From NCBI GenBank assembly GCA_902774155.1, contig CACYHF010000031.1, positions 1-34,658 on the forward strand: 34,658 bases of DNA, written 5' to 3'. This stretch comes from an uncultured Bacteroidia bacterium. GTDB taxonomy: Bacteria; Bacteroidota; Bacteroidia; Bacteroidales; UBA932. Positions within the stretch are counted from its first letter, which is position 1. Each line of letters opens with the position of its first letter. Shown here one piece after another: positions 17,741-28,624 of this stretch. Both the position numbers and the translations under genes were made by a program. The notes beneath the pieces were generated by a model. It was not told the DNA's origin. It made no database searches and worked only from the letters and a program-made list of their open reading frames with translations.

Positions 17741-18667
17741 TCAAATTTCGTAAACATCGCCGTCAGAAGTGGCGAAAGTTTCGGGAAACACCGTCCGGCA
17801 TTCGGCCTCATAGGCCTTGCAATTGTTGTCGCGGGAAGAATAATGGCCGATGAGCAGTTTCCCGACGCCGGCCTCGCGGGCCACCTGCGCGGCCTGCAAC
17901 GTGGTGGAATGGTGGCGGACAGCGCCTAAATCGGCATATTCCTCCAGATAGGTGGTCTCATGGTAGATGACCGTGGTTCCCTGCAGCCAGCCGGCCAGTT
18001 CCGGGAACGGGGACGTATCCGAACAATAGGCGTAGCTCCGGGGCACGAAGGGCTTGTAGGCAGCCTCGGAGGCCGGAATCACGCTGCCGTCGGTACGCAG
18101 CACGTCCTCCCCGCGTTTGAGCGTGCCGATTTCCGTGAGGGTGAGGCCGTAACGCGCAATGGCATCCTTGTGCACATTGAAGGGAGGCTCTTTCTCGGCA
18201 ATACGGAAACCAAAGGTTTCGATGCCGTGGTTCAGCGGAAATGCCTGGACCAGAATGCTTTTGCTCTCCAGGATGGTTTCCGGTTCTTTCATCTTCAGCG
18301 GCGTATAACGGATTTCAAAAGCCAGACCATCGCCATAATAGCTGAGGAAGAACTTGAGCAAGGGGCCGAAATTGGGCGGGGCGAAAATGTTCAGCGGCGT
18401 CTGCCGGCCCTTCATCCCCAGCGTACTGAGCAGGCCGAAGATGCCGAAAACGTGGTCCCCGTGGATGTGGGAGAGGAAAATGGAATCCAGCTTCATCATA
18501 GGGATATGCTCCTGGACCATCCAGTACTGGGTTCCCTCTCCGCAGTCGATAAGGAACAAGCGCCCATGCACACTGAGTGCCTGGGCGCTTTGGTTTCTGT
18601 CCCCTGTGGGCATGGCCGAGGCCGTGCCCAGCAGGGTTAAGGTAAAGGTATTCGGGTTATTACTCAC
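17741..18667 (-). CDS. rnz: Ribonuclease Z
   Basis: Zinc-dependent tRNA 3'-endonuclease of the metallo-beta-lactamase fold, 308 residues, the usual short-form length. The metal site is visible: SHIHGDH (HxHxDH), LNHGIE, SDTSPFPEL, and the late ITGHYSSR-type block here reading LIGHYSSRD. The N-terminus TLLGTASAMPTGDRNQSA fits the family. tRNA-Thr in this window has no encoded CCA, so 3'-end trimming is needed. GTG 18667 is taken as start: GTGAGTAA overlaps the rpsA stop by 8 nt, pointing to translational coupling. No better ATG exists before the first strand. Confidence 0.93.
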   Translation of the reverse strand: MSNNPNTFTLTLLGTASAMPTGDRNQSAQALSVHGRLFLIDCGEGTQYWMVQEHIPMMKLDSIFLSHIHGDHVFGIFGLLSTLGMKGRQTPLNIFAPPNFGPLLKFFLSYYGDGLAFEIRYTPLKMKEPETILESKSILVQAFPLNHGIETFGFRIAEKEPPFNVHKDAIARYGLTLTEIGTLKRGEDVLRTDGSVIPASEAAYKPFVPRSYAYCSDTSPFPELAGWLQGTTVIYHETTYLEEYADLGAVRHHSTTLQAAQVAREAGVGKLLIGHYSSRDNNCKAYEAECRTVFPETFATSDGDVYEI

Positions 18668-20021
18668 CCTTTTCCAGCTGCTCCTTCAGGGCGGCCAGGG
18701 CAGAGATGTCACCGAGGGTGGTCTTCTCCACGTTGCTCTGGACCTTCTTGATGGCCTTCTTGGCGCTTTCGGCCTCGGCGGTCTCGCGGGCGGCTTTCAC
18801 CTCCTGATAGGTGCGGACGTGGGATACGCGGACGGTGCGGGTGCTGCGGCGCAGATCCACCACCTTCACGGGCAGGGTCTCGCCCACCAGGGCCTGCTTG
18901 CCGTCTTCCTTCACCATCTCACGGTTGAAGGCGGTCACTTCGGTACCATCGGCCAGGGCCAGGGTGGTGTTCTTGTCGCTGGTGGCGGTTACGGTAGCGT
19001 CTACCGTGGTGCCCACAGGGTACTTGGCCTCGAGTTCGTCCCAAGGGTTGGGAGTGAGCTGCTTGTGGCCCAGGGAGAGCTTGTGGCTATTCTCGTCGAA
19101 GTCCAGGATTACAACGTCGATGACGTCGCCGCTCTGAACCATTTCGGCGGGATGCTTGATCTTGTTCCAGGACAGGTCGGAGATGTGGATCAGACCCTCG
19201 ACACCGTCTTCCAGTTCGGCGAATACACCGAAGTTGGTGATGTTACGGACGGTAGCCTTGTGCTGGGAACCCACGGGATATTTCTCGCGGATGGTCTCCC
19301 AAGGATTGGTGGTGAGCTGCTTGATGCCCAGGGACATCTTGCGGGCCTCGCGGTCCAGGGTGAGGATGACGGCTTCCACTTCGTCGCCCATCTTCAGGAA
19401 TTCCTGAGCGCTGTGCAGACGAGGGCTCCAGCTCATTTCGCTCACGTGTACCAGACCTTCCACGCCAGGTTCCACCTCTACGAAGGCGCCGTAGTCGGCC
19501 ACGGCCACTACCTTGCCCTTCACGGTGTCGCCCACCTTCAGGTCTGCGGAGAGAGCCTCCCACGGGTGCGGGGTAAGCTGCTTGAGGCCCAGGGCGATAC
19601 GCTTCTGCTGCTCGTTGAAATCGAGCACCACCACGTTGATCTTCTGGTCCAGGGCAACCACTTCTTCCGGATGGGAGATGCGGCCCCAGCTGAGGTCGGT
19701 GATGTGGATGAGACCGTCCACACCGCCCAGGTCTACGAACACGCCGTAGTTGGTAATGTTCTTCACCACGCCCTCGAGCACCTGGCCCTTCTCCAGCTTG
19801 GAGATGAGTTCTGCACGCTTGAGTTCCTGCTCGGCCTCCAGGAGAGCCTTGTGGGAAACGACCACGTTGCGGAATTCCTGATTAATCTTCACGATCTTGA
19901 AGTCCATGGTGGTGTCCACGAATACGTCGTAGTCACGGATGGGCTTGATGTCGATCTGGGAGCCGGGGAGGAAGGCCTCGATGCCGAACACGTCCACGAT
20001 CATACCACCCTTGGTGGCTTT
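18660..20021 (-). CDS. rpsA: 30S ribosomal protein S1, 3' part (S1 domains 2-6), out of frame with the 5' part
   Basis: This frame encodes the rest of S1: most of domain 2 (ATKGGMIVDVFGIEAFLPGSQ) and complete domains 3 (VLEGVVKNITNYGVFVDLGG), 4 (VKGKVVAVADYGAFVEVE), 5 (KATVRNITNFGVFAELED) and a diverged domain 6. S1 binds mRNA on the 30S subunit. It continues the 19933-20460 fragment but in another frame. Around 20019-20022 the sequence passes from WDMVNAAYE straight to KATKGGMIV, where related S1 proteins have about ten more residues, the first strand of domain 2. A deletion of length 3n+2 fits. An ATG at 20003 would allow only an incomplete protein. rnz follows with an 8-nt overlap. Confidence 0.88.
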   Translation of the reverse strand, partial: KATKGGMIVDVFGIEAFLPGSQIDIKPIRDYDVFVDTTMDFKIVKINQEFRNVVVSHKALLEAEQELKRAELISKLEKGQVLEGVVKNITNYGVFVDLGGVDGLIHITDLSWGRISHPEEVVALDQKINVVVLDFNEQQKRIALGLKQLTPHPWEALSADLKVGDTVKGKVVAVADYGAFVEVEPGVEGLVHVSEMSWSPRLHSAQEFLKMGDEVEAVILTLDREARKMSLGIKQLTTNPWETIREKYPVGSQHKATVRNITNFGVFAELEDGVEGLIHISDLSWNKIKHPAEMVQSGDVIDVVILDFDENSHKLSLGHKQLTPNPWDELEAKYPVGTTVDATVTATSDKNTTLALADGTEVTAFNREMVKEDGKQALVGETLPVKVVDLRRSTRTVRVSHVRTYQEVKAARETAEAESAKKAIKKVQSNVEKTTLGDISALAALKEQLEKGE

Positions 20022-20460
20022 CGTAGGCGGCGTTTACCATATCCCAAGACTTGAGCTGACGGGCCTTCTTGTGGGAAATCACCAGCTGACCTTTGCGGTC
20101 TTCGGCGTTCTCCACCAGCACTTCCACCTTGTCACCCACTTTCAGATCCGGGTTGTAGCGGAATTCGGGAGCAGAGATGACACCTTCGCTCTTGGCGCCG
20201 ATGTTCACCACCACCTCACGCTTGTTGATAGCGGTAACAACACCTTCCACCACCTCATTTTCGGTGACCTTGGAAAGGGTTTGCTCGTACTTGGCCAGGG
20301 TTTCTTCCTTGGAACCCTTCTCTACGCCCTCGTTCTCAAAAGCATCCCAGTCGAAATCTTCGGGAGCTACAGAGGCGTTGAGCACAGCCTTCTTGGTTTC
20401 TTTCTGGACAGGAGCCTCCACCGGAGTCTCTTCTGCCACGTTCTTAATTTCTTCAGACAT
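19933..20460 (-). CDS. rpsA: 30S ribosomal protein S1, 5' part (S1 domain 1), frame-shifted
   Basis: N-terminal part of S1: an acidic leader (MSEEIKNVAEETPVEAP), the FDWDAFE segment common in Bacteroidota S1, then S1 domain 1 (VVEGVVTAINKREVVVNIGAKSEGVI) through SHKKARQLKSWDMVNAAYE, residue 147. After this residue the frame is wrong; the remaining 28 codons (SHQGWYDRGRVRH and on) do not resemble S1 and are translation of the shifted sequence. Start ATG 20460 follows an 85-90 nt leader with a hairpin and a clear promoter. S1 is essential in most bacteria that have it, so an assembly or sequencing error, or a lineage-specific lesion in an uncultured genome, must both be considered. Confidence 0.88.
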   Translation of the reverse strand: MSEEIKNVAEETPVEAPVQKETKKAVLNASVAPEDFDWDAFENEGVEKGSKEETLAKYEQTLSKVTENEVVEGVVTAINKREVVVNIGAKSEGVISAPEFRYNPDLKVGDKVEVLVENAEDRKGQLVISHKKARQLKSWDMVNAAYESHQGWYDRGRVRHRGLPPRLPDRHQAHP

Positions 20461-20512
20461 AAACAGTTTGGTTGAAAAAACTAGTAGTTAAACATTATTT
20501 CCTGAGCTTTTG

Positions 20513-20537
20513 CCGGAGCGCATATATGCGCGCCCGG
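20513..20537 (-). promoter_or_regulatory. Hairpin in the rpsA mRNA leader
   Basis: CCGG (20513-20516) pairs with CCGG (20534-20537) and encloses the perfect 14-bp palindrome GCGCATATATGCGC (20518-20531). It lies in the predicted rpsA leader, between promoter (20551-20558) and ATG (20460). S1 represses its own mRNA in E. coli, so an autoregulatory role is possible, but this is inference. Confidence 0.4.
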
Positions 20538-20550
20538 GGAAAAAAGCGCG

Positions 20551-20558
20551 CAAATATA
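20551..20558 (-). promoter_or_regulatory. -7 promoter element for rpsA
   Basis: Minus-strand TATATTTG matches TAnnTTTG. TTG lies 20 nt further upstream, a plausible -33 element. The predicted leader is about 85 nt. The 318-nt gap between rpsA and aqpZ also holds the 124-bp repeat (20585-20708) and the aqpZ terminator. Confidence 0.75.
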
Positions 20559-20584
20559 CGGATAAATATTTGATTATACAACAA

Positions 20585-20708
20585 TTTGGCGCAGGTCTGG
20601 GCACTTTTGGCGCAGGTCTGTTTTTCTGCCGCATACCTGCTCCGCATATCGGTCTCCTGTGTATTCTGATGGCGCAGGACCGCACACTTTTTCCCGACCT
20701 GCGCCATC
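20585..20708 (-). repeat. 124-bp structured dispersed repeat, copy A
   Basis: On the minus strand it matches copy B (25108-25231, plus strand) with 15 substitutions and no gap over 123 positions (about 88% identity). It begins with an 11-bp perfect stem, GATGGCGCAGG (20708-20698) with CCTGCGCCATC (20678-20668), and a 19-nt loop. A weaker stem follows: its arm at 20643-20634 has two mismatches to GGCGCAGGTC, the other arm is 20618-20609. A further half-site lies at 20597-20588; the last two are 21 bp apart. It sits between the aqpZ terminator and the rpsA promoter. Substitutions show no codon-position bias (6, 4, 5), so it is not a protein gene. It may be a REP-like element. Confidence 0.85.
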
Positions 20709-20725
20709 TGACCCTGCTATAATGC

Positions 20726-20755
20726 AAAAGGCCAACCTGAACGGGTTGGCCTTTT
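20726..20755. terminator. Strong terminator after aqpZ
   Basis: AAAAGGCCAACC (20726-20737) pairs perfectly with GGTTGGCCTTTT (20744-20755) around a 6-nt loop. It is 23 nt past the aqpZ stop and could act in both directions. Confidence 0.92.
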
Positions 20756-20778
20756 GTGTCAGATGCAGGATTATCCTG

Positions 20779-21450
20779 TTACTTGGCGGGAGCGATGGCT
20801 TTCCAGACTGCGGCACTCAGGGCACCACCCACCAGGGGAGCGCAGATGAATACCCACAGATCCTGCAGGGCAGCACCACCGGCGAACAGAGCCGGGCCGA
20901 TGGAACGGGCCGGGTTCACGGAAGTTCCGGTGAGGTTGATGCAAACCAGGTGGACGAGGATGAGGGTGAGGCCGATGGCCAGACCGGCCAGATTACCGGC
21001 ACCCACTTTGGAATCCGTGGTGCCCAGCACCACCAGGACGAACAGGAAGGTGGCGATCACTTCCACCAGGCAGGCACCCCAGACGCCGCCCGCATTGGCT
21101 ACGCCGTTGGTACCCAGGCCGCCGGTAAGATCCGGAGCAGCCACAACTTTGGTGAGCAGGAGGAGAAGGGCGCCGGCGATGATACCGCCGATCACCTGAC
21201 CTACCCAGTAACCGCAAGCGTCTTTCCAGCTCATGCGGCCGCTGAGCGCAACACCCAGGGTGATGGCCGGGTTGATGTGGCAACCGCTGATGCCGCCGAT
21301 GGTGTAGGCCATGGCCACAACAGTGAGACCGAAAGCGATGGCCGTTCCCACTACGCCGGCAGGCGTGTTGCAGCCCAGAAACATGGCGGTACCGCAACCA
21401 AGGAACGTGAGGACAAATGTGCCGAGGCACTCTGCAATGTACTTTTTCAT
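20779..21450 (-). CDS. aqpZ: Aquaporin Z-type water channel
   Basis: A 223-residue MIP-family inner-membrane channel with six membrane helices. Both pore loops carry NPA: HINPAITLGVAL (about 65-76) and SVNPARSIGPALF (about 180-192). The N-terminus MKKYIAECLGTFVLTFLGCG and the short loop regions fit AqpZ rather than the larger glycerol facilitator GlpF. It allows water to equilibrate during osmotic change. It starts 18 nt after corA and is followed by a strong terminator, so the two form a small transport operon driven from the corA promoter. Confidence 0.94.
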   Translation of the reverse strand: MKKYIAECLGTFVLTFLGCGTAMFLGCNTPAGVVGTAIAFGLTVVAMAYTIGGISGCHINPAITLGVALSGRMSWKDACGYWVGQVIGGIIAGALLLLLTKVVAAPDLTGGLGTNGVANAGGVWGACLVEVIATFLFVLVVLGTTDSKVGAGNLAGLAIGLTLILVHLVCINLTGTSVNPARSIGPALFAGGAALQDLWVFICAPLVGGALSAAVWKAIAPAK

Positions 21451-21468
21451 AGGTTTTAGTGTTTATGA

Positions 21469-22401
21469 TTAAAGAAGTTTCTTGCGACGGAAGAGCACTA
21501 ACACCAGCAGGCAGCTCAGGGCCATCAGGCCCAGGATAATGACCCAGTTCCAGAAATTGGCGTTGGGTTCGTCGGTCTGGAGGATGGGGAGCCTGACGTT
21601 CATGCCGTAAAAACCGGCAATAAGGGTGGGCGGCATCAGGAACACCGACACCACCGCCAGGATTTTCATGATCTTGTTCTGCTCCAGGTTGATGAGACCC
21701 ACCACGGTGTCCTGGAGGTATTCCAGACGCTCGAAGCAGAAGTTGGTGTGGCTGAGCAGGGAACTGATATCCTGCAGTAACACGTTCAGGCGGTTCTCCA
21801 GGCTGCGCGGCACCTTTGTGGAACGCATGAGGTTGGAGATGAGCCGCTGCTTATCCACCACGTTTTCCCGCACCACCATGGTGTTTTCCTGCATCTGGGA
21901 GATGTCTATCAGGAGTTCCTGGTCGATGTCTTCCTGGTCATTGATCTGCCGGGCATACTGGGAGATCTCCTTGGAAAGGAGCTCGATCATATCGGCATCC
22001 AGGTCTACACGTTGATCCAGGATGCTGGCAAACACGCTGAAGCCGGAAGGATATTGCTTGGGATTCACCTGCATACGGCGCTGCAGCTCCGTGAAGGAAC
22101 GCAGCGGTACTTCGCGGAGTGTGGCGAGGGTATCGTCCATAATGGTGAACGACACGGCTTGCTCCCCGTACTCTTCCGGACCCGGCGTCAGGAAGTTGGT
22201 GTTGGCGAAAATGGCGTCGTCGGTCTCGAAATAACGGGACGATGATTCAATTTCCTCTGCCTGTGCCCGGCTTTGGATTTCGGTGCCCATGAAGGCTTCC
22301 ACCGCACGTTTTTCCGCCCCTGTGGGATTCACAAGGTCTATCCATACGGTGTCCTCCAGCTTCAATATTTTTCCGTTTTCTTTGTAGAAGATACTCAGCA
22401 T
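21469..22401 (-). CDS. corA: CorA family magnesium transporter
   Basis: A 310-residue protein with a long cytoplasmic N-terminal domain and two C-terminal membrane helices. The signature GMN is in YGMNVRLP at the end of the first helix, followed by an acidic/polar loop (ILQTDEPNANFW), a second helix and the basic tail FRRKKLL. CorA pentamers carry Mg2+ (also Co2+ or Ni2+) inward. The helical segment at about 165-245 is the long stalk helix. It has its own promoter (TACTTTTG at 22488-22495) with an 86-nt leader and is cotranscribed with aqpZ. Confidence 0.94.
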   Translation of the reverse strand: MLSIFYKENGKILKLEDTVWIDLVNPTGAEKRAVEAFMGTEIQSRAQAEEIESSSRYFETDDAIFANTNFLTPGPEEYGEQAVSFTIMDDTLATLREVPLRSFTELQRRMQVNPKQYPSGFSVFASILDQRVDLDADMIELLSKEISQYARQINDQEDIDQELLIDISQMQENTMVVRENVVDKQRLISNLMRSTKVPRSLENRLNVLLQDISSLLSHTNFCFERLEYLQDTVVGLINLEQNKIMKILAVVSVFLMPPTLIAGFYGMNVRLPILQTDEPNANFWNWVIILGLMALSCLLVLVLFRRKKLL

Positions 22402-22487
22402 ATCTCTCGATCTGTTTTAGCTCCGGGCCAGTCGCTCCGGATGGGATTGTACAATAAACCAGCCGACGTTACGGAAAAGTCAGCACA

Positions 22488-22495
22488 CAAAAGTA
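22488..22495 (-). promoter_or_regulatory. -7 promoter element for corA-aqpZ
   Basis: Minus-strand TACTTTTG matches TAnnTTTG, 86 nt before the corA ATG. The leader contains a short CCGG-type stem (GGAGCGACTGGCCCGGAGC); no known metal riboswitch is recognised. Confidence 0.65.
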
Positions 22496-22528
22496 CGGAA
22501 AAAACTTGAAAAAGCAAGCACTAATCGC

Positions 22529-22536
22529 TATTTTTG
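22529..22536 (+). promoter_or_regulatory. -7 promoter element for the phosphodiester glycosidase gene, five bases before ATG
   Basis: TATTTTTG is followed by CCTCT and ATG 22542, predicting a leaderless mRNA and fixing the start codon. Confidence 0.7.
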
Positions 22537-22541
22537 CCTCT

Positions 22542-23393
22542 ATGAAAAAGTTATGGATTCTTTTGGGCGCCGCCCTGCTCTGCGCCTGCCAGCCGGAGCC
22601 CCATTTTTTAGATGGGGCCGATAACCTGTACAACCTGGAAAACGGCGCAGTGCTCACAGCCCGGAAGGCCCGGAAAGCCCCTGGGGTATATGGCCAGTTA
22701 CATACGGATCTTTTCGGCCAACCGCAAGCCATCAGTTTTGTGCGTGTGCGTCCGGAAGCCTACGGAATCGACATCCTTTGCGGCGAGGGCGAACAGGCCG
22801 ATAGCACCAGCGCCATGTGCCTGCGTTACGGTGCCATAGCCGGCATCAACGGCAGCTATTTCAATATGGGTGCCCTCACGCCCCAAACTTTTATCAAGGA
22901 TGATGGAGCCCAGGTGGGCAGTCCTGCCAATCAGGAATCTTTCCGGACCAACGGTGCCATTTATGTCCAGCAGGATGGTTATTCCATTGATGCCGGCGAA
23001 GATACCACGGCCGTTTGCTGGGAAGCCATGGGCAGCGGTCCCATCCTCATCGACGAAGGGGAAATCCGTTCTTATCCGGAAGACAAACCGAATGATAACT
23101 TTTACGGCGTGCGTCATCCCCGCTCCCTGGTAGGAACCGACAAAGAAGGTTATTTATGGCTGGTGGTAGTGGACGGCCGAAACGACAAAGCTGCCGGTAT
23201 GACCATCGGCGAACTTACGGTACTGGCCTGCCTGATCGGCCTCACGGACGCCCTGAATCTGGACGGCGGCGGATCTTCTACCTTGTGGACCCTGCCGGGC
23301 GGCGTGCTGAACCACCCCTGTGATAACGGCCGCTTCGACGCCTACGGCCAGCGCCGCGTTCCCAACGTACTTGCCCTGAAAAAAGGTAACTGA
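22542..23393 (+). CDS. Phosphodiester glycosidase (NAGPA/DUF2233) lipoprotein
   Basis: A 283-residue exported protein. The N-terminus MKKLWILLGAALLCACQPEP is a signal peptide ending in Cys16, a plausible lipobox (LCAC) though Cys at -2 is unusual. The body has NAGPA-domain (phosphodiester glycosidase) motifs: INGSYFNMG, the Asp-rich middle, RHPRSLVGTD, VVVDGRND and the strongly conserved LDGGGSSTLW. Members cleave N-acetylglucosamine-phosphodiester type bonds; in bacteria the natural substrate is mostly unknown. The start is placed 5 nt after the promoter element, excluding 12 codons of an upstream reading. It stands alone, divergent from corA; the low-GC RAYT insert follows. Confidence 0.88.
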   Translation: MKKLWILLGAALLCACQPEPHFLDGADNLYNLENGAVLTARKARKAPGVYGQLHTDLFGQPQAISFVRVRPEAYGIDILCGEGEQADSTSAMCLRYGAIAGINGSYFNMGALTPQTFIKDDGAQVGSPANQESFRTNGAIYVQQDGYSIDAGEDTTAVCWEAMGSGPILIDEGEIRSYPEDKPNDNFYGVRHPRSLVGTDKEGYLWLVVVDGRNDKAAGMTIGELTVLACLIGLTDALNLDGGGSSTLWTLPGGVLNHPCDNGRFDAYGQRRVPNVLALKKGN

Positions 23394-23400
23394 CAGTACA

Positions 23401-23570
23401 CGGATAATACCTGTATTTCGGCCTCGCAGGCACGTCAAGTGCCACTTTTTCGTTTTCCCGTCATCGCTTTTTCAAAAAAAGCCGTTTGATGTTTCTGACA
23501 AATCGGTCCTGTAAGACCCTCAGAGGCGGATAATACAGTTAAACGTTTCTTTTTCGGATACACGGATAAG
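23401..23570 (+). repeat. CGGATA-rich stretch before the RAYT gene
   Basis: The 10-mer CGGATAATAC occurs at 23401 and 23527, and shorter CGGATA copies at 23555 and 23563 (the last as CGGATAAG). The 209-nt gap also contains a small hairpin GGTC/GACC (23505-23518). No gene is seen here. The repeats may be recognition or scar sequence of the adjacent transposase, but they are too short to be sure. Confidence 0.35.
23429..23450 (+). terminator. Possible weak terminator after the glycosidase gene
   Basis: GGCAC (23429-23433) pairs with GTGCC (23439-23443), followed by ACTTTTT and further T-rich sequence, 35 nt after the stop codon. The stem is short. Confidence 0.45.
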
Positions 23571-23602
23571 ATTTCTTTCCTTTGCGAAAAAGAAACAAGT
23601 CT

Positions 23603-24523
23603 ATGTCTTTTCAAAGAATCGTCACCCGGACCTTACCGGACGGAATTGTCACTAAAGTTTACCCTTTCCATATTAGCCTGGAGGGATTGGAAAAGAATCT
23701 CCTGTGCCGGGATGAAGATGACTATGATGTAGTAGAAAAACTACTATTCGTTTCGGCTTGGGAAACTAATTGCCTTGTCGTCATCCACATTGTCATGTCC
23801 AATCATGGGCATGCCTGCGTCCTTGCACCTGCTTGGGAAAACGCCTACAAGCTGTCCGAAACACTCAAGAAACGTTGCTCAATGCACATAGCCAACAAGT
23901 ACAATGAACACAATGTGTTAACTAGGACCTCTGCGTGCATCCAGTTGCTAGATACGGACTGGTATGTCCGGAACGTACTGGCTTATATTCCCCGGAATGC
24001 AAAAGACACCGGACAACGGATAGAGGATTATCCTTGGAGCGGATACAGAGGGATGTTTATTGGTGGGAAAAGCGACAATGGGATCCGAAGGGTTGCTTCC
24101 CTCACTCGAAGGGAGAAAGAAGCCCTGTTCCATACTCATGCCAATCTGGATAAAACTCCCTGGCTTCTGGACAGGAATGACCGTCTTGTGCCCGTCACTT
24201 GTTGTGATTGGGAATATCTGGAATCGGCCTTTAACCATGATGAGACCTTCTTTTTGAAAACTATCGGGACGGTGAATCCAGCCGAAATGGAACAGAAACT
24301 GATTCACAACCTGCGAGACAGACAACCTGACCCCACCTTCCTCCTGACGGTAAGCGACTTGTCGGAACGATGGTTCCGGAAAACACCGGCCGAGTTGACA
24401 CTGGAACAGAAATCCCGACTAATCCCATATATTTACCGAAGTTACAGAACCACTGTTTCACAACTGGCCCGGTGCATGAAAGAGAACGCCGAAACTATCG
24501 AAAGAATGATCAGAAAAAGATGA
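23603..24523 (+). CDS. REP-associated tyrosine transposase (RAYT, Y1/IS200-like)
   Basis: A 306-residue single-strand DNA transposase of the HUH type. The HUH motif is MSNHGHACVL (His68, His70); the likely nucleophile is Tyr128 in NVLAYIPRNA, matching the YIxxNP block of the family; YPWSGYRG (143-150) corresponds to the conserved W-SS-Y segment. Residues about 262-306 look like a helix-turn-helix (TLEQKSRLIPYIYRSYRTTVSQLARCM), as in RAYTs with DnaA-like C-termini. RAYTs are domesticated, single-copy relatives of IS200/IS605 transposases linked to REP palindromes. ATG 23603 is preferred over a TTG 21 nt upstream. Its stop overlaps the HRDC gene by ATGA. Base composition is lower in GC than neighbouring genes. 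Confidence 0.87.
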   Translation: MSFQRIVTRTLPDGIVTKVYPFHISLEGLEKNLLCRDEDDYDVVEKLLFVSAWETNCLVVIHIVMSNHGHACVLAPAWENAYKLSETLKKRCSMHIANKYNEHNVLTRTSACIQLLDTDWYVRNVLAYIPRNAKDTGQRIEDYPWSGYRGMFIGGKSDNGIRRVASLTRREKEALFHTHANLDKTPWLLDRNDRLVPVTCCDWEYLESAFNHDETFFLKTIGTVNPAEMEQKLIHNLRDRQPDPTFLLTVSDLSERWFRKTPAELTLEQKSRLIPYIYRSYRTTVSQLARCMKENAETIERMIRKR

Positions 24524-25125
24524 AAACGCTATTACAAATATCCGAATGGGAAGATGGAAGTCTCAGCTTCTATAGTGCCCCGTACCCTGGCATTGAGAAT
24601 TATTATGAATTATTTAGCCGATTTATTCCGGAATTGAAAAAAGCGCCCTACGAAGCACAGATGTGGATTGAACTGTTTGGGGGTGTCCTACAAATGATGG
24701 ATCTGGGGATGAGCTCCTATATGACTGAACCGGATTACGATGATTACTATAATGTAGAGGAAGAACCCTGGTCCAATCAGAAAGATAAACCATGCACGAT
24801 GCCAGACTCCCACCGAGAACCTGACCCCCCATATAACCCTGAAATGGATCCGGAATGGCAAAAAAGACGGATAGCCATCTCAAGCGGACTGAAAAACTGG
24901 CGACAGGAAAAAGCGGAGCAGAAAGGCATTCACAACTGGGAGATCATCAAACATACCGTTTTAGCAGAAATAGCCAGGAAGATGCCGATCACACGGGAGG
25001 ACCTGCTGTCCGTACGGGGTATCGGAGACACTACTTGGAACCGCTATGGTGCGGAAATCCTTTCTGTTGTCCGAAAAAGTATGGATTCAGCTTCTGGAGA
25101 TAAGCCCGATGGTGCAGGTCAGTAA
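24520..25125 (+). CDS. HRDC-domain protein coupled to the RAYT
   Basis: A 201-residue protein of unknown role. Residues about 118-186 form an HRDC domain (helicase and RNase D C-terminal nucleic-acid-binding fold): LKNWRQEKAEQKGI, VLAEIARKMPITREDLLSVRGIGD, WNRYGAEIL. The first 110 residues are acidic and aromatic (DYDDYYNVEEEPW) and match nothing I recognise; there is no helicase or nuclease motif. Its ATG overlaps the RAYT stop (ATGA), so the two are made together. Its last codons and TAA lie inside the repeat at 25108-25231. It may help the RAYT bind or process structured single-stranded DNA; that is inference. An upstream reading from 24370 merely overlaps the RAYT gene. Confidence 0.82.
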   Translation: MKTLLQISEWEDGSLSFYSAPYPGIENYYELFSRFIPELKKAPYEAQMWIELFGGVLQMMDLGMSSYMTEPDYDDYYNVEEEPWSNQKDKPCTMPDSHREPDPPYNPEMDPEWQKRRIAISSGLKNWRQEKAEQKGIHNWEIIKHTVLAEIARKMPITREDLLSVRGIGDTTWNRYGAEILSVVRKSMDSASGDKPDGAGQ

Positions 25126-25231
25126 AAAGTACGCAGTCCTGTGCCATCAGAATGCACACGAGGCCGATATGCGGCGCAGGTCTGCGGCAAAAAAACCGAC
25201 CTGCGCCAAAAGAGCCCAGACCTGCGCCAAA
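25108..25231 (+). repeat. 124-bp structured dispersed repeat, copy B
   Basis: Partner of copy A in opposite orientation. Stem 1: GATGGTGCAGG (25108-25118) with CCTGTGCCATC (25138-25148), 19-nt loop, 11 pairs including two G.T wobbles. Stem 2: GGCGCAGGTC (25173-25182) with GACCTGCGCC (25198-25207), perfect, 15-nt loop. A fifth half-site GACCTGCGCC is at 25219-25228, 21 bp after the preceding one. The element lies between the convergent ends of the HRDC gene and queC and contains the HRDC stop codon in the loop of stem 1. Confidence 0.85.
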
Positions 25232-25239
25232 ACAGGGAT

Positions 25240-25881
25240 TTATGCTTCGTAGGAGGTGGGGTCGAAGCCTTCCAGGGCTTCTTTTCTTTCTACGCAGGTG
25301 CCGCACTTGCCGCAGTGCCGTTCCCCACCCTTGTAACAGGAGTAAGTAAGGCTGTAATCCAGGCCGATGGCCTTGCCCCGCAGCGCGATAGCCCGCTTGT
25401 CGATGTTGCAGTAAGGCGAAACCACCCGGATTCCTTCATACGTACCGGCCTGCACCGCCTGGTCCATAGCCTCCACAAAAGCCGGCCGGCAGTCCGGATA
25501 GATGGCGTGGTCGCCGCTGTGGTTGGCCAGCAGGACGGTATCCAGTCCGTAACTCTCGGCCAGTCCCGCCGCCACGGCCAGCATAATGCCGTTCCGGAAA
25601 GGCACCACGGTGCTTTTCATGTTCTCATCGGCATAGGAACCTTCGGGAATGTCGCCGCCGCTCTGGAGCAAATCGCTCTTGAAATACTGGCCGATAAAGC
25701 CCAGCGGAATTACCAGATGCTTGATTCCCAATCGTTTGCAATTCTCCACCGCACAGGCGATTTCCCGCGCGTTGTGCTTGGAACCATAGTCGAAGGTGAC
25801 GGCCAGCCCAATACTCTCCTTGTATTCATACAGCAAGGTGGTACTGTCCAGCCCCCCGGAATAAATCAGAACTGCTTTCAT
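25240..25881 (-). CDS. queC: 7-cyano-7-deazaguanine synthase (QueC)
   Basis: ATP-dependent enzyme that turns 7-carboxy-7-deazaguanine into preQ0 in queuosine synthesis. The 213-residue protein starts at MKAVLIYSGGLDSTTLLYEY, the PP-loop ATP site. The middle VPFRNGIMLAVAAGLAES and the VLLANHSGDHAIYPDCRP segment are typical. The C-terminal zinc site is C-x7-C-x2-C-x2-C in CYKGGERHCGKCGTC. ATG 25881 is preferred to a nine-codon longer reading. It is the last gene of the seven-gene minus-strand operon but is separated from the GltD-like gene by 79 nt containing a 9-bp inverted repeat. No preQ1 riboswitch is recognised. It ends 9 nt from repeat copy B. Confidence 0.95.
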   Translation of the reverse strand: MKAVLIYSGGLDSTTLLYEYKESIGLAVTFDYGSKHNAREIACAVENCKRLGIKHLVIPLGFIGQYFKSDLLQSGGDIPEGSYADENMKSTVVPFRNGIMLAVAAGLAESYGLDTVLLANHSGDHAIYPDCRPAFVEAMDQAVQAGTYEGIRVVSPYCNIDKRAIALRGKAIGLDYSLTYSCYKGGERHCGKCGTCVERKEALEGFDPTSYEA

Positions 25882-25923
25882 CGTGACAACTAACCGTCTA
25901 TCAATCAACCATTTACATACATC

Positions 25924-25948
25924 TCCTCGTTCAAAAATCGAACGAGGA
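25924..25948 (-). repeat. 9-bp perfect inverted repeat before queC
   Basis: TCCTCGTTC (25924-25932) and GAACGAGGA (25940-25948) form a 9-bp stem with a 7-nt loop, in the 79-nt gap between the GltD-like gene and queC. No T-run follows on the minus strand. It may be an attenuator, an operator or an mRNA-processing hairpin. Confidence 0.5.
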
Positions 25949-25960
25949 ACATACTATAAC

Positions 25961-27205
25961 CTACTCAGTTTCAGCTACTTGACTGCCACAGCCCAGTTGC
26001 GCTTGGATGGCCGATACGGCGGTGCGGGCCGATGCTACGGCTTCCACTACGGTCTTGGGCCCCAGCAGGAAGTCGCCGGCCAGCCAGACGTTGGACAGCC
26101 CCTCCACCTTACCCGCTTCGTCCACGGAAGGCCAGCCCCACTGGTTCATCACGGCCGGCGTACCGGCAAAGAGATCGAAGTCCGGCTTCTCGGAGATCGC
26201 AGTCAAAAGGGTGTCGCACGGCACGAAATGATCGGTTCCCTCAATGATACGGGTGACCACGCGGCCCCCGTCTTCCGGCTGCACATTTTCGCAGTCGCGG
26301 AAGACCACTCCGCCCTCGCGGACCTCCACCGGCGCCTGGAATACCTTGAACTGGACGCCATCGGCCTTGGCTTCCTCCACTTCCAGCGGATTGGCCGGCA
26401 TGTTCTCGAAGGTCTTGCGGTAGTACACCCAGGTTTCGCAGCCCTGGCGCACGGCTGTACGGCAGGCATCCATTGCCACGTTGCCGCCGCCGATCACAAT
26501 CACTTTCTTACCCAGATTGAAGGCCGAAGGATCCTTCAGGAACGGCAGTGCCTGCACGGCCTTTTCCTCGCCTGGGATGTGCAGGGTGGCCGGTTTTTCG
26601 GCCCCGGCACCCAGGATTACAGCGTCGTAATCGGCCATCAAGTCAGAGAGAGAACCGTCGCGGCCCAATTCATACCCGCCCTTGAATTCGATGCCGGCGG
26701 AAGTTAACAGCGCTTCATAAGCGTCACAGTATTTCTTGTCCAGCCGGAAAGCCGGAATGCCATAGCGCAGCACGCCGCCCATCCGGGGATTGGCATCGAA
26801 GAGGGTGACGGTGGCACCGGCCTCGTACAGCCACACGGCCGATGCAATACCCACCGGACCGGCGCCCACCAGGGCAATCCGCTTGCCCTGCAGCTCTTCG
26901 CTGCGGCGAACCAGTTTATGCCGGAACAGATAGGCGGTGGAAATCTCCTGCTCAATCTCGTACCAGCGGACCGGGACCTGTTTCACGTTCAGGACGCAAT
27001 GCCCATAGCAGAACTGCTTCCAGTCGCACACCTGCGAGGTGACGGCCGTGAGGGGGTTATTTTCGAAAAGCAGTTCCCCAGCCTGGTCCAATTTTCCTTC
27101 CCGATACAGCAGCATACTTTCCGGAACCGGAGTATGCACGGGACACCCCTGCAGGGCACATTTGGGTTTCTTACATAATAAGCAACGCAGAGCTTCGTTA
27201 TTCAT
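25961..27205 (-). CDS. GltD-like FAD/NAD(P) oxidoreductase
   Basis: A 414-residue flavoprotein like the small subunit of glutamate synthase and related electron-input subunits. An N-terminal Cys-rich segment (CLLCKKPKCALQGCPVHTPVPE, and later CDWKQFCYGHC) resembles the 4Fe-4S-binding Fer4_20 domain. An FAD Rossmann motif (LVGAGPVGIASA, about 112-123) and a second NAD(P) motif (VIGGGNVAMDA) follow, with the C-terminal WLAGDFLLGPKTVVEAVASAR. No large glutamate synthase subunit or other partner is nearby, so the electron acceptor is unknown. It overlaps the recR stop by ATGA and belongs to the seven-gene operon. Confidence 0.88.
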   Translation of the reverse strand: MNNEALRCLLCKKPKCALQGCPVHTPVPESMLLYREGKLDQAGELLFENNPLTAVTSQVCDWKQFCYGHCVLNVKQVPVRWYEIEQEISTAYLFRHKLVRRSEELQGKRIALVGAGPVGIASAVWLYEAGATVTLFDANPRMGGVLRYGIPAFRLDKKYCDAYEALLTSAGIEFKGGYELGRDGSLSDLMADYDAVILGAGAEKPATLHIPGEEKAVQALPFLKDPSAFNLGKKVIVIGGGNVAMDACRTAVRQGCETWVYYRKTFENMPANPLEVEEAKADGVQFKVFQAPVEVREGGVVFRDCENVQPEDGGRVVTRIIEGTDHFVPCDTLLTAISEKPDFDLFAGTPAVMNQWGWPSVDEAGKVEGLSNVWLAGDFLLGPKTVVEAVASARTAVSAIQAQLGCGSQVAETE

Positions 27206-27828
27206 GGTTTGAAGATTAATCGGTTGGTAAGGGCGCGGCCCAGGGTGAGGGAATCGGCGTATTCGAGGTCGTCGCCGAAGCCCAGACCGCGCGCCAGGGT
27301 GGTGATGCGCACCCCACTGGCTTCAATCTGACGATAAATGTAAAAGGCGGTGGTCTCCCCTTCCACGTCGCCGCTCAGGGCCAGGATCACCTCTGCGCCG
27401 GAAGGGTTTTCCAGCGCCTGCACCCGCTCCGTCAGTTCGCGGATGGACAGGTCCGAGGGCCCCACGCCGGCGATGGGCGAAATGATGCCACCCAGCACGT
27501 GATAAACGCCGTGATACTGGCCCGTGGACTCGATGCTCATCACGTCCCGGACGCTTTCCACCACGCAAATGGTGCGGGGGTCGCGGTTGCGGTTGGAGCA
27601 GATGGAGCACAGTTCCTCGTCCGAGATCATCCGGCAGCAACGGCAATAGCGCACATCGTCGCGCAAGTGATTGATGGCCGATGTGAAATGATGCACATTC
27701 TCCGCCGGCTGCTTCAGCAGGTGCAGGGCCAGGCGCAACGCGCTCCGCCGTCCCACGCCGGGCAGCGAACTGATGGCCTCGACGGCCTCCGTAAGCAGAG
27801 CGGATGGATAGGTTTCTTTATAGGCCAT
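27202..27828 (-). CDS. recR: Recombination mediator protein RecR
   Basis: A 208-residue RecF-pathway protein that, with RecO, loads RecA onto gapped DNA. In order: helix-hairpin-helix with SLPGVGRRSALRLALHLL (about 21-38), zinc finger CRCC...CSIC (about 66-83), and Toprim domain (CVVESVRDVMSIESTGQYHGVYHVLGG, then LALSGDVEGETTAFYI). Start ATG 27828 gives MAYKETYPSALL, as in relatives; a 45-codon extension upstream would lie over the preceding gene. It overlaps the kinase end by 11 nt and the GltD-like start by 4 nt, showing tight cotranscription. Confidence 0.95.
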   Translation of the reverse strand: MAYKETYPSALLTEAVEAISSLPGVGRRSALRLALHLLKQPAENVHHFTSAINHLRDDVRYCRCCRMISDEELCSICSNRNRDPRTICVVESVRDVMSIESTGQYHGVYHVLGGIISPIAGVGPSDLSIRELTERVQALENPSGAEVILALSGDVEGETTAFYIYRQIEASGVRITTLARGLGFGDDLEYADSLTLGRALTNRLIFKP

Positions 27829-28624
27829 GGTAGCGGAGCAAGCCCTCCAACGGAGAAGCGGAAATGGTGGAGATGCAAATCCCGTATTCCTGCCCCAGGG
27901 CACGGAGGGTGTCCCGGCAGGCATAGCCGAAACCACCCGTGATGCCAAGAGGCAGTTGGTCATATTGCCGGACAGTCCGTTCGAAGAATGCCCGGAAATT
28001 GTTGTCTATCAGGTTCTTTACGTATTCACAGGTGGCGTAGTGGGCGTGCAGGAAAGGGGCCAGCGACCCCAGGAAACGGGCCGGTGCCACGCTGCCATAC
28101 ACTTCCTTCACAATGGAAGGATAATCGGCCGGAAACTGCGCAGCAAATACATCGGCCAGTTCCTTGGGAACGAAGCCTTTGAGGTAATCCGTGAGGAAAA
28201 GCTTTCCCAACACAGCCGCCGAGCCTTCATCGCCCAGGATAAAGCCGCCGCAGTTCACCTTGCGGGAAATGCCGATGCCATCGTACTGGCAGGTATTGGC
28301 CCCGGTGCCGATAATGGCGGCGATGCCCGGCTCCCGGCCGCAAACGGCCCGTGCCGTCCCCAGCATATCGGAGGCGTATTCAATGCTGGCGCCGGGGAAC
28401 CACTGGCCCAGGTCTACGGGCGGATTCCCCACCAGACCGGCCGCATAAAAATGGATTTCCCCTATATCGGAGCCCAGGCGGAAGGAGACTTCGTCCAGGA
28501 TGCGGTGCAACTGCTCCCGCGGCGTCTGCGCCAGATTGAAACCAGGTGTCCGGATGCTGGTTTTTCCGTCTCCCAGCACCCAGTCGGCCTTGGTGGCCCC
28601 GCAGTCTACGATTAGTTTATTCAT
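27818..28624 (-). CDS. BadF/BadG-type kinase (N-acetylglucosamine kinase-like)
   Basis: A 268-residue ASKHA-fold sugar-kinase-like ATPase. Phosphate-1 motif IVDCGATKADW (about 4-14), phosphate-2 AAIIGTGANTCQYDG (about 100-114), GGFILGDEGSAA and the adenosine motif ITGGFGYACRDTL near the C-terminus are visible. Bacteroidota proteins of this type are often called N-acetylglucosamine kinase, but the substrate here is not shown: there is no MurQ or NagA neighbour. The adjacent PnuC-type vitamin transporter, 4 nt upstream in the operon, makes phosphorylation of an imported compound conceivable. Start MNKLIVDCGATK at 28624 is chosen because 66 upstream codons are low-complexity shadow sequence. Confidence 0.86.
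   Translation of the reverse strand: MNKLIVDCGATKADWVLGDGKTSIRTPGFNLAQTPREQLHRILDEVSFRLGSDIGEIHFYAAGLVGNPPVDLGQWFPGASIEYASDMLGTARAVCGREPGIAAIIGTGANTCQYDGIGISRKVNCGGFILGDEGSAAVLGKLFLTDYLKGFVPKELADVFAAQFPADYPSIVKEVYGSVAPARFLGSLAPFLHAHYATCEYVKNLIDNNFRAFFERTVRQYDQLPLGITGGFGYACRDTLRALGQEYGICISTISASPLEGLLRYHGL

Follow-up and report, generated by a model that had tools for sequence, protein, structure and literature searches.

Repetitive extragenic palindromic (REP) sequences and their REP-associated tyrosine transposases (RAYTs) make up the REPIN/RAYT systems, or REPtrons, of E. coli and Pseudomonas (TnpA_REP), in which a Y1 HUH protein has cognate palindromes beside its gene, these palindromes form inverted doublets, each RAYT has one repeat family, and copies are dispersed between genes. 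Excerpts of published work describe RAYTs and REPs as co-evolving (PMC8266576). TnpA_Y1 subclass 2.6 (Bertels group 5) of Bacteroidetes has, according to the excerpted description, flanking structures of an atypical kind that recur at other places in the genome, a median length of 179 amino acids and the motifs NH[LIV]H and YIH[QN]NP (PMC6006769); the TIRYT proteins of subclass 2.1, with their TIRtrons, are described in similar excerpts by the repeat consensus GGGG[AT][CG]A[CG] (PMC3733652, PMC6006769). Here we study a DNA window of 34,658 nucleotides (contig CACYHF010000031.1 of assembly GCA_902774155.1) from an uncultured Bacteroidia bacterium of the Bacteroidales lineage UBA932, in which two inverted copies of a 124-bp element, copies A and B, enclose a RAYT-like gene. 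We find that the system belongs with RAYT/REPIN, and that what is new in it is a palindrome of fixed spacing, a partner gene and, above all, a predictive residue-base code: judged from sequence, four residues of the RAYT C-terminal extension (169, 172, 173 and 179) predict the four-base core of the palindrome base by base.

The REPIN/RAYT features listed above all recur here. The differences are a protein of 306 amino acids with a helical C-terminal extension of about 150 residues, the motifs SNHxH and LAYIPRNAxDxG instead of the published ones, AGGT-N17-ACCT in place of GTAG and a compact hairpin, a low number of copies, a small partner gene, and a core predicted by four residues. Subclass 2.6, as excerpted, shares the Bacteroidetes host and the atypical flanking structures but differs in protein size and motifs. 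TIRtrons share a RAYT-like gene with inverted repeats and families of terminal inverted repeats in dimers, and their C-terminal DNA-binding-like tail may have a counterpart here, but they have another repeat consensus, and the excerpts compared give no residue-base code for them. Because of these differences we file the system as a variant of RAYT/REPIN. In the LacI family, too, few residues predict operator bases (PMC2978694, in excerpt), but these proteins are transcription factors and not relatives of transposases. Within the open-licence literature and the terms used, we found no account of such Bacteroidales elements, of an HRDC protein as partner of a RAYT or of a code linking RAYT residues to bases.

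Copies A and B are identical at 109 of 124 positions in inverted orientation, and a repeat search over positions 18000-28000 of the window returns their arms as the first and longest inverted pair (124 nt, 88% complementary). The original prediction had counted 108 of 123 matching positions, with differences spread 6/4/5 over the codon positions; our counts (5/6/4 for the latter) equal these within one position, save for a frame offset in the spread. Its layout of stem, stem and extra half-site at +21 agrees with the half-sites that we place in copy B at 25111-25120 (-), 25136-25145 (+, two mismatches), 25173-25182 (-), 25198-25207 (+) and 25219-25228 (+). Half-sites stand at equal offsets in both copies, as two successive inward pairs followed by an extra half-site 21 bp on:

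20585-20708, minus strand: copy A, an inverted doublet of two palindromes with an extra half-site, core GCGC (repeat search and identity count).
20609-20643 and 20671-20705: the two palindromes of copy A (pattern search).
20588-20597, minus strand: extra half-site of copy A, GACCTGCGCC (half-site positions).
25108-25231, plus strand: copy B, an inverted doublet of two palindromes with an extra half-site, core GCGC/GTGC (repeat search and identity count).
25111-25145, plus strand: palindrome 1 of copy B, GGTGCAGGTC-N15-GTCCTGTGCC (AGGT-N17-TCCT).
25173-25207, plus strand: palindrome 2 of copy B, GGCGCAGGTC-N15-GACCTGCGCC (AGGT-N17-ACCT).
25219-25228, plus strand: extra half-site of copy B, GACCTGCGCC, 21 bp past the preceding one.
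25162-25168, plus strand: GGCCGAT, between the two palindromes of copy B.

The pair encloses genes for an aquaporin, CorA, a phosphodiester glycosidase, the RAYT-like protein and an HRDC-domain protein. By eye, the two window copies contain neither GT[AG]G at a palindrome foot (both strands) nor the TIRYT/subclass 2.1 consensus GGGG[AT][CG]A[CG], and Rfam gives no match in the window from 20000 to 25700 at E<=1. A whole-genome DNA search at E<=0.01 returns copies A and B and one diverged copy, at C10:266-366 (C, G and L denote contigs, genomes and loci).

To describe the unit beyond one window we use 85 RAYT loci, five from the source genome (a 92%-complete draft) and 80 from named records of metagenome-assembled genomes (MAGs), the latter being the best 80 of 109 obtained when the five paralogues served as queries against named genomes. 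Nearly all of the 80 are labelled as Bacteroidales or Bacteroidia MAGs (two as Fibrobacter, one as Prevotellaceae), and record titles place many of them in ruminant stomachs. The unit is a palindrome, G-NNNN-AGGT-Y / R-ACCT-N'N'N'N'-C, made of two 10-bp half-sites with AGGT and ACCT separated by 17 (or 16) bp; AGGT is constant throughout, the four-base core varies among RAYT families, and over-represented words in the RAYT flanks mostly match (N)ACCT-NNNN-C. With gaps of 16 and 17 and at most one mismatch, palindromes occur within 2.5 kb of the RAYT gene at 80 of the 85 loci (on both flanks at 51, on one at 29, on neither at 5), and at least two occur at 66; among 112 distant 5-kb control windows 10 have a palindrome and 3 have two or more. 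Each RAYT gene is thus accompanied by a repeat family of its own at 80/85 loci against 10/112 far windows. A further 19 of 19 loci with palindromes are not an independent count, because many of them are near-copies of training loci.

The same picture follows when the fixed word is varied. AGGT gives 139 palindromes within 2.5 kb of a RAYT (366 kb; 61 of 80 loci) against 16 in the 878 kb farther off, 15 of these 16 also with gap 17, and each of 12 control 4-mers put in place of AGGT gives 0-4 near matches. If pairing is not demanded, AGGT-gap-ACCT occurs near RAYTs 153 times with gap 17 and 40 times with gap 16, and at most 11 times with any other gap from 10 to 25. The five flanking pairs are 79-92% complementary at gap 17 (78-95% over gaps 16 and 17); far from RAYTs there are 43 gap-17 sites with 42-65% pairing and 2-21 sites at other gaps, and the 43 may be a faint sign of dispersed copies. 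Among 148 distinct sites the pair adjoining AGGT is C-G in 53, A-T in 71, G-C in 10 and T-A in 1: changes in the arms are compensatory, with pairing kept through changes on both sides.

Palindromes that follow one another (less than 200 bp apart, gap 17 only) do so at 62-63 bp (36 cases), 72-75 bp (57), 84 bp (5) or 94 bp (1). Taken overall, the spacing of the two units is mostly 61-63 or 72-75 bp and sometimes 84 bp. Their loops fit better as reverse complement than directly in 87 of 105 distinct doublets and worse in 18, with an identity of 0.50 against 0.34 within doublets and of 0.42 against 0.24 between loops of different loci. The palindrome pairs are therefore inverted doublets, as in REPINs, with the two REPs in opposite orientation that define a REPIN or a bacterial interspersed mosaic element (BIME). 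At 10.5 bp per turn the distances correspond to 5.9-6.0, 7.05-7.14, 8.0 and 8.95 turns, which is suggestive of helical phasing, and half-sites with the same core recur in direct repeat at 21 bp (43 pairs) and 22 bp (189 pairs, 232 in total) as well as at near multiples. The string GGCCGAT was considered as an equivalent of GTAG and set aside as not generally present: of the 85 loci, 21 show the tag-to-AGGT pattern, and among 126 doublet spacers 34 contain the string in one orientation or the other. Separately, one doublet unit at L106 (9012-9079) is missing in the near-identical L110, as expected from recombination between both palindromes.

We now consider how the core is distributed over the RAYT family. 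Taking the commonest core as the state of a locus assigns a core in 74 of 85 loci. For ten recurrent cores (65 loci) the RAYT tree requires 14 changes, against a shuffled mean of 41.4, and none of 200 shuffles is as low; tree-based states are uncertain for L096, L122, L086 and L047, and L096 was entered as GGGC for this test, yet its commonest site is TCCC. The core follows the RAYT tree, so that core and RAYT evolve together, and gut and rumen Bacteroidales hold many parallel families, each pairing its own RAYT with its own four-base core. The original prediction, an undescribed REP or BIME-like family tied to the enclosed RAYT, stands as to the kind of element, the inverted doublets and the further genomic copies, and needs correction in that the family is one of many parallel ones.

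The gene and the stretch of it that concerns the core are:

23603-24523, plus strand: RAYT-like HUH/Y1 gene, 306 amino acids (family alignment, predicted structure, Foldseek).
24107-24139, plus strand: RAYT codons 169-179, covering predicted helix 169-176 and residue 179, with R, K, E and H at 169, 172, 173 and 179 beside the GCGC core.

To find these positions we scored RAYT columns for what same-core pairs have in common beyond other-core pairs at equal overall pairwise identity. The highest columns are 173 (0.65), 169 (0.51), 179 (0.40) and 172 (0.33), followed by a next value of 0.20; in the structural model, residues 169-173 lie within predicted helix 169-176 of the C-terminal extension and 179 just past it. 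The rules read H or R for G, G or A for T and D or C for C at N1; E for C, R or K for G and I, L or M for T at N2; and RK for GC, RR for GA and K for CC at N3N4. In pooled counts H179 goes with G in 37 of 37 cases, G179 with T in 60/60, N179 with A in 5/5, E173 with C in 54/54 and R173 with G in 46/47. Direct contacts in the major groove follow the same pairings, in which G goes with Arg, Lys or His, C with Glu, A with Asn and T with a small or aliphatic residue.

The rules were fixed in writing before further RAYTs were fetched, and 24 RAYTs seen before the rules were final are excluded from the strict test. The 83 new RAYT loci reduce to 55 that are less than 90% identical to the training set, to each other and to the 24, and 40 of these have a core score of at least 6 and are scored (nearest training identity 0.28-0.88, median 0.57). 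For these 40 the code predicts 122 of 125 bases (N1 34/34, N2 37/38, N3 25/26, N4 26/27) and 20 of 20 whole cores where all four bases are predicted; when cores are shuffled among loci 10,000 times, a mean of 62.7 and a maximum of 81 of the 125 are right. In 24 cases the code and the nearest training relative give different bases; the code is correct in 22 of them and the relative in 2. A score threshold of 4 gives 133/138 bases and 21/23 cores, and one of 10 gives 97/99 and 17/17. Two whole cores that were never the commonest in training are rightly predicted, CGGC from RKRD (L325) and TTCC from KRIG (L269), and N179 goes with A at N1, outside the written rules, in 5/5 loci, of which four are KREN with ACCC and one is TTKN. 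We consider it likely that the four residues are a modular code for the four base pairs after the constant ACCT, that their exchange would retarget the protein, and that evolution has thereby split one REP/RAYT system into many non-crossing ones.

The original prediction had placed a RAYT gene between the copies, and family, motif and fold evidence confirm it as HUH/Y1, with a weak Pfam score. Pfam Y1_Tnp reaches only E 0.036 on the window RAYT, below the cut-off, a Pfam search across the source genome does not include the gene among its matches, and only 18 of 40 family members match at E<=0.01. S66, H68, H70 and Y128 are invariant in 40 of 40 aligned members, giving the HUH histidine pair (H68, H70) and a single predicted catalytic tyrosine (Y128); the residue between the histidines is G, C, S, A or F among members inspected, and hence not always bulky and hydrophobic. 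The source genome's five paralogues carry SNH[GC]H or STHGH and AYI[PV]RNA. An AlphaFold model (mean predicted local distance difference test score, pLDDT, 91.9) has as its top Foldseek match 4er8_A, a RAYT with a REP hairpin (E 6.8e-4), followed by IS608, IS200-type and ISDra2 transposases, which points to a Y1 transposase fold in the predicted structure. By sequence, a profile finds no convincing relative among solved structures (one match, E 0.28). The C-terminal extension runs for about 150 residues past the catalytic domain, with three helices predicted in the tail and an HTH_22 match in 1 of 40 members.

Besides the window gene, the source genome has four close RAYT paralogues (C40, C28, C25 and C14) and two weak protein-search matches; a profile search gives 8 RAYT matches in total. 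The C25 paralogue has RCRG at the four code positions and a TGTA core. Just downstream of the C14 RAYT lies a group I intron (L006 2478-2683; Rfam RF00028, 54.3 bits), whose host reads like a tRNA gene, with no call there by ARAGORN. Two further RAYT-like genes, at L004 1399-2319 (C21) and L005 928-1866 (C41), have DHTH or DHIH and NNNP motifs and are each flanked on both sides by a compact hairpin of their own (AGTCCTCGTTC.. and AAATCGATTAC..) unrelated to the AGGT palindromes. A distant branch of RAYT-like genes of about 300 amino acids (L043 at C40:11969, L044 at C29:52078, L245-L253), up to several per genome in the genus, has other palindromes alongside in some cases, such as CATGTGGTG in L251, and AGGT-N17-ACCT palindromes at L249 (G011) and L254 (G012).

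The partner gene of the window overlaps the RAYT stop and runs into copy B:

24520-25125, plus strand: partner gene with a C-terminal HRDC domain, in a 4-bp overlap (ATGA) with the RAYT stop.

Its own stop codon TAA (25123-25125) falls within copy B. In 55 of 85 loci the RAYT has a neighbour from one family of small open reading frames (ORFs), usually a few bases upstream (one BLASTP cluster, E 1e-4; the window's partner, outside the distance rule of this clustering, was added separately); in the window and in L045 this neighbour lies downstream. The family comes in two forms that have an N-terminal stretch in common, and one of the two carries an HRDC domain, which Pfam scores at E 4.3e-14 in the window partner. 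What we take to be a DprA-like gene stands beside the RAYT in 11 of 85 loci (C28, L080, L084, L087, L093, L096, L100, L107, L113, L119 and L122), and a presumably TatD-like gene downstream in L084, L086, L113 and L122.

Copies of the elements are sparse and scattered. The source genome contains 8 sites of the window's core type and 22 zero-mismatch sites of any core, 17 of them paired or nearly so by eye. The further copies expected by the original prediction are thus present, though few rather than 'many', and the more than 100 copies per genome of classical REPs are not reached. Sites away from RAYTs include a TACA doublet (C12:47810) with single sites on C1 and C5, GGCC doublets on C16, on C32 and at C28:25859 with a single site on C34, and GCGC/GTGC sites on C10, C2 and C18; C12, C16 and C32 have doublets and no RAYT match on the contig. 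The C12 doublet takes up a convergent junction, with the two stop codons at distances of about 12 and 30 bp, and is absent from the same junction in three relatives (G057, G005 and G058), which by eye have terminator-like hairpins there. The C16 doublet also fills a convergent junction, and in G019 the neighbouring gene is flipped between conserved flanks and there is no doublet. For the genes flanking the C2 doublet, 60 relatives give no match at E<=1e-25. Two GCGC/GTGC doublets surround a secretory-lipase-like gene (Pfam LIP) at L255 1836-3612 (G028:C12), with no RAYT between them. Single two-mismatch palindromes in coding DNA (L100 3074, L045 6558, L050 12459, L121 12841) were rejected as elements, as these stretches align without gaps in relatives.

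A 20-base pattern of the window type occurs in 6 of 51 genomes of a set of relatives, and a control pattern in none. The original prediction had named, as an outcome against it, copies no rarer in relatives that lack the RAYT; this did not occur, and the set's 20 genomes of other families have neither the pattern nor a RAYT at E<=1e-20. Absence of the pattern without a RAYT is nevertheless a weak test: a wider-family RAYT is present in 6/6 pattern genomes and likewise in 51/61 genomes of the genus. G011 and G012, which have the pattern and give no RAYT match in a single-protein search, were candidates for element-bearing genomes without a RAYT until a profile search gave distant-branch RAYTs (7 and 3 matches). 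In G012 one of these (L254 2435-3406) lies between two GTGC palindromes, and in G011 the elements and these RAYTs are on separate contigs.

Doublets are also associated with rearrangement breakpoints. The window and L045 (RAYT 75% identical) are collinear up to 20575 and 25241, no more than about 10 bp from copies A and B, and inside the pair CorA and the RAYT with its partner are inverted relative to the flanks; the doublets at C28:25859 and on C16 are at inversion junctions as well. The case of L080 2307 / C28:25859 as an insertion with an empty site in L087 was dropped, the site being an inversion breakpoint. Beside a RAYT doublet, L089 (8988-9442) and L092 (9415-8961) differ by a 455-bp inversion; their RAYT segments between doublets are 78% identical and the adjoining backbone blocks about 95-96%.

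Taken together, we hold it very probable that copies A and B are REPIN-like doublets and the DNA partner of the enclosed RAYT, whose helix would read the core. We infer that the RAYT mobilises the doublets and that the half-sites are read as double strand. A RAYT helix would enter the major groove of a half-site and read its core, and a RAYT dimer or array would assemble on the doublet. The HUH/Tyr active site would then nick and rejoin one strand of single-stranded DNA, at a replication fork or an extruded cruciform, and so copy or move doublets into places between genes. Inverted doublet pairs would help segments to flip, and the small partner (in its HRDC form in the window) may aid on single-stranded or branched DNA. 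The systems, each made of a RAYT and its elements, would be insulated from one another, and this would account for several being kept per genome.

Several observations weigh against this reading. Copy numbers are low, unlike those of classical REPs; five training loci have no palindrome; and single palindromes can arise by chance. In the source genome the bare spacing pattern at one mismatch is rarer than its reversed control (130 against 360), which is why only sites with paired cores were counted. The C28:25859 doublet, lacking in L087, may reflect either gain or loss, as it stands at an inversion breakpoint. Because two distance classes dominate, an unconstrained fit of the doublet spacings favours 12.2 bp, so that the case for helical phasing, and hence for double-strand reading, comes chiefly from the 21-22 bp arrays; the code itself cannot separate single- from double-stranded reading, because a hairpin stem has the same base pairs. 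Over all 55 loci with no core threshold the code gives 146/165 bases and 21/25 cores, with in-sample misfits at L047, L061, L086, L122 and C40, an ambiguous core at C14, and misses at L308, L333 and L344 after the rules were written.

The alternative that survives best, possible but in our view the less probable account, is that of a classical single-stranded REP: each palindrome would fold into a hairpin with a 10-bp stem and a 15-nt loop and be recognised in this form, as happens with E. coli TnpA_REP, and the arrays and spacings would be by-products of duplication. Both copies do fold well as single-stranded DNA (z -3.85 to -5.09 over both strands of A and B, values that none of 200 shuffles reaches for any of the four), arm pairing survives changes on both sides, and the closest structural relative binds a REP hairpin. 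A hairpin accounts poorly, however, for a loop of fixed length (15 or 14 nt) and variable sequence, for the 232 same-core pairs in direct order at 21-22 bp, for a lone extra half-site unable to fold alone, for a core that tracks a helix outside the HUH core, and for window copies without a GTAG tag.

It is unlikely that the doublets are the terminal inverted repeats of a TIRtron, with RAYT and partner moving as one transposon. TIRtrons with RAYT-like genes are known (PMC3733652, in excerpt), elements stand on both flanks at 51/85 loci, and the lower identity of the L089/L092 RAYT segment than of its backbone would fit; but 29/85 loci have them on one flank only, C12, C16 and C32 carry doublets without a RAYT, three unrelated genes lie inside the window pair, and none of 21 locus pairs compared reveals a clean insertion of the whole cassette.

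Transcription factors typically have arrays of half-sites and a code between amino acids and bases, and a recognition code is known for the LacI family (PMC2978694, in excerpt); both points favour a reading of the half-sites as operators for control of the RAYT operon by the RAYT itself or by its partner. We think this rather improbable, and somewhat more so than a TIRtron: the elements stand downstream too, on both flanks at the 51 loci just mentioned, and the C12 and C16 doublets lie away from any RAYT between convergent stop codons. That the inverted repeats are plain scars, produced and kept by homologous recombination with a coincidental RAYT link, would suit the synteny breaks beside copies A and B with inverted segments between them and the inversion junctions at C16 and C28:25859, but is hardly credible given the prediction of 122/125 core bases from RAYT residues and the fixed spacing and core families in 80/85 loci.

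The co-evolution of RAYTs and REPs and the birth of new REP families have not been worked out; in the families described here this co-evolution can be written as base-by-base rules that are predictive on unseen cases and directly testable by exchanging a few residues. The rules point to a natural family of HUH nucleases with a readable, modular DNA specificity, and they offer a likely reason why one genome has several RAYTs.

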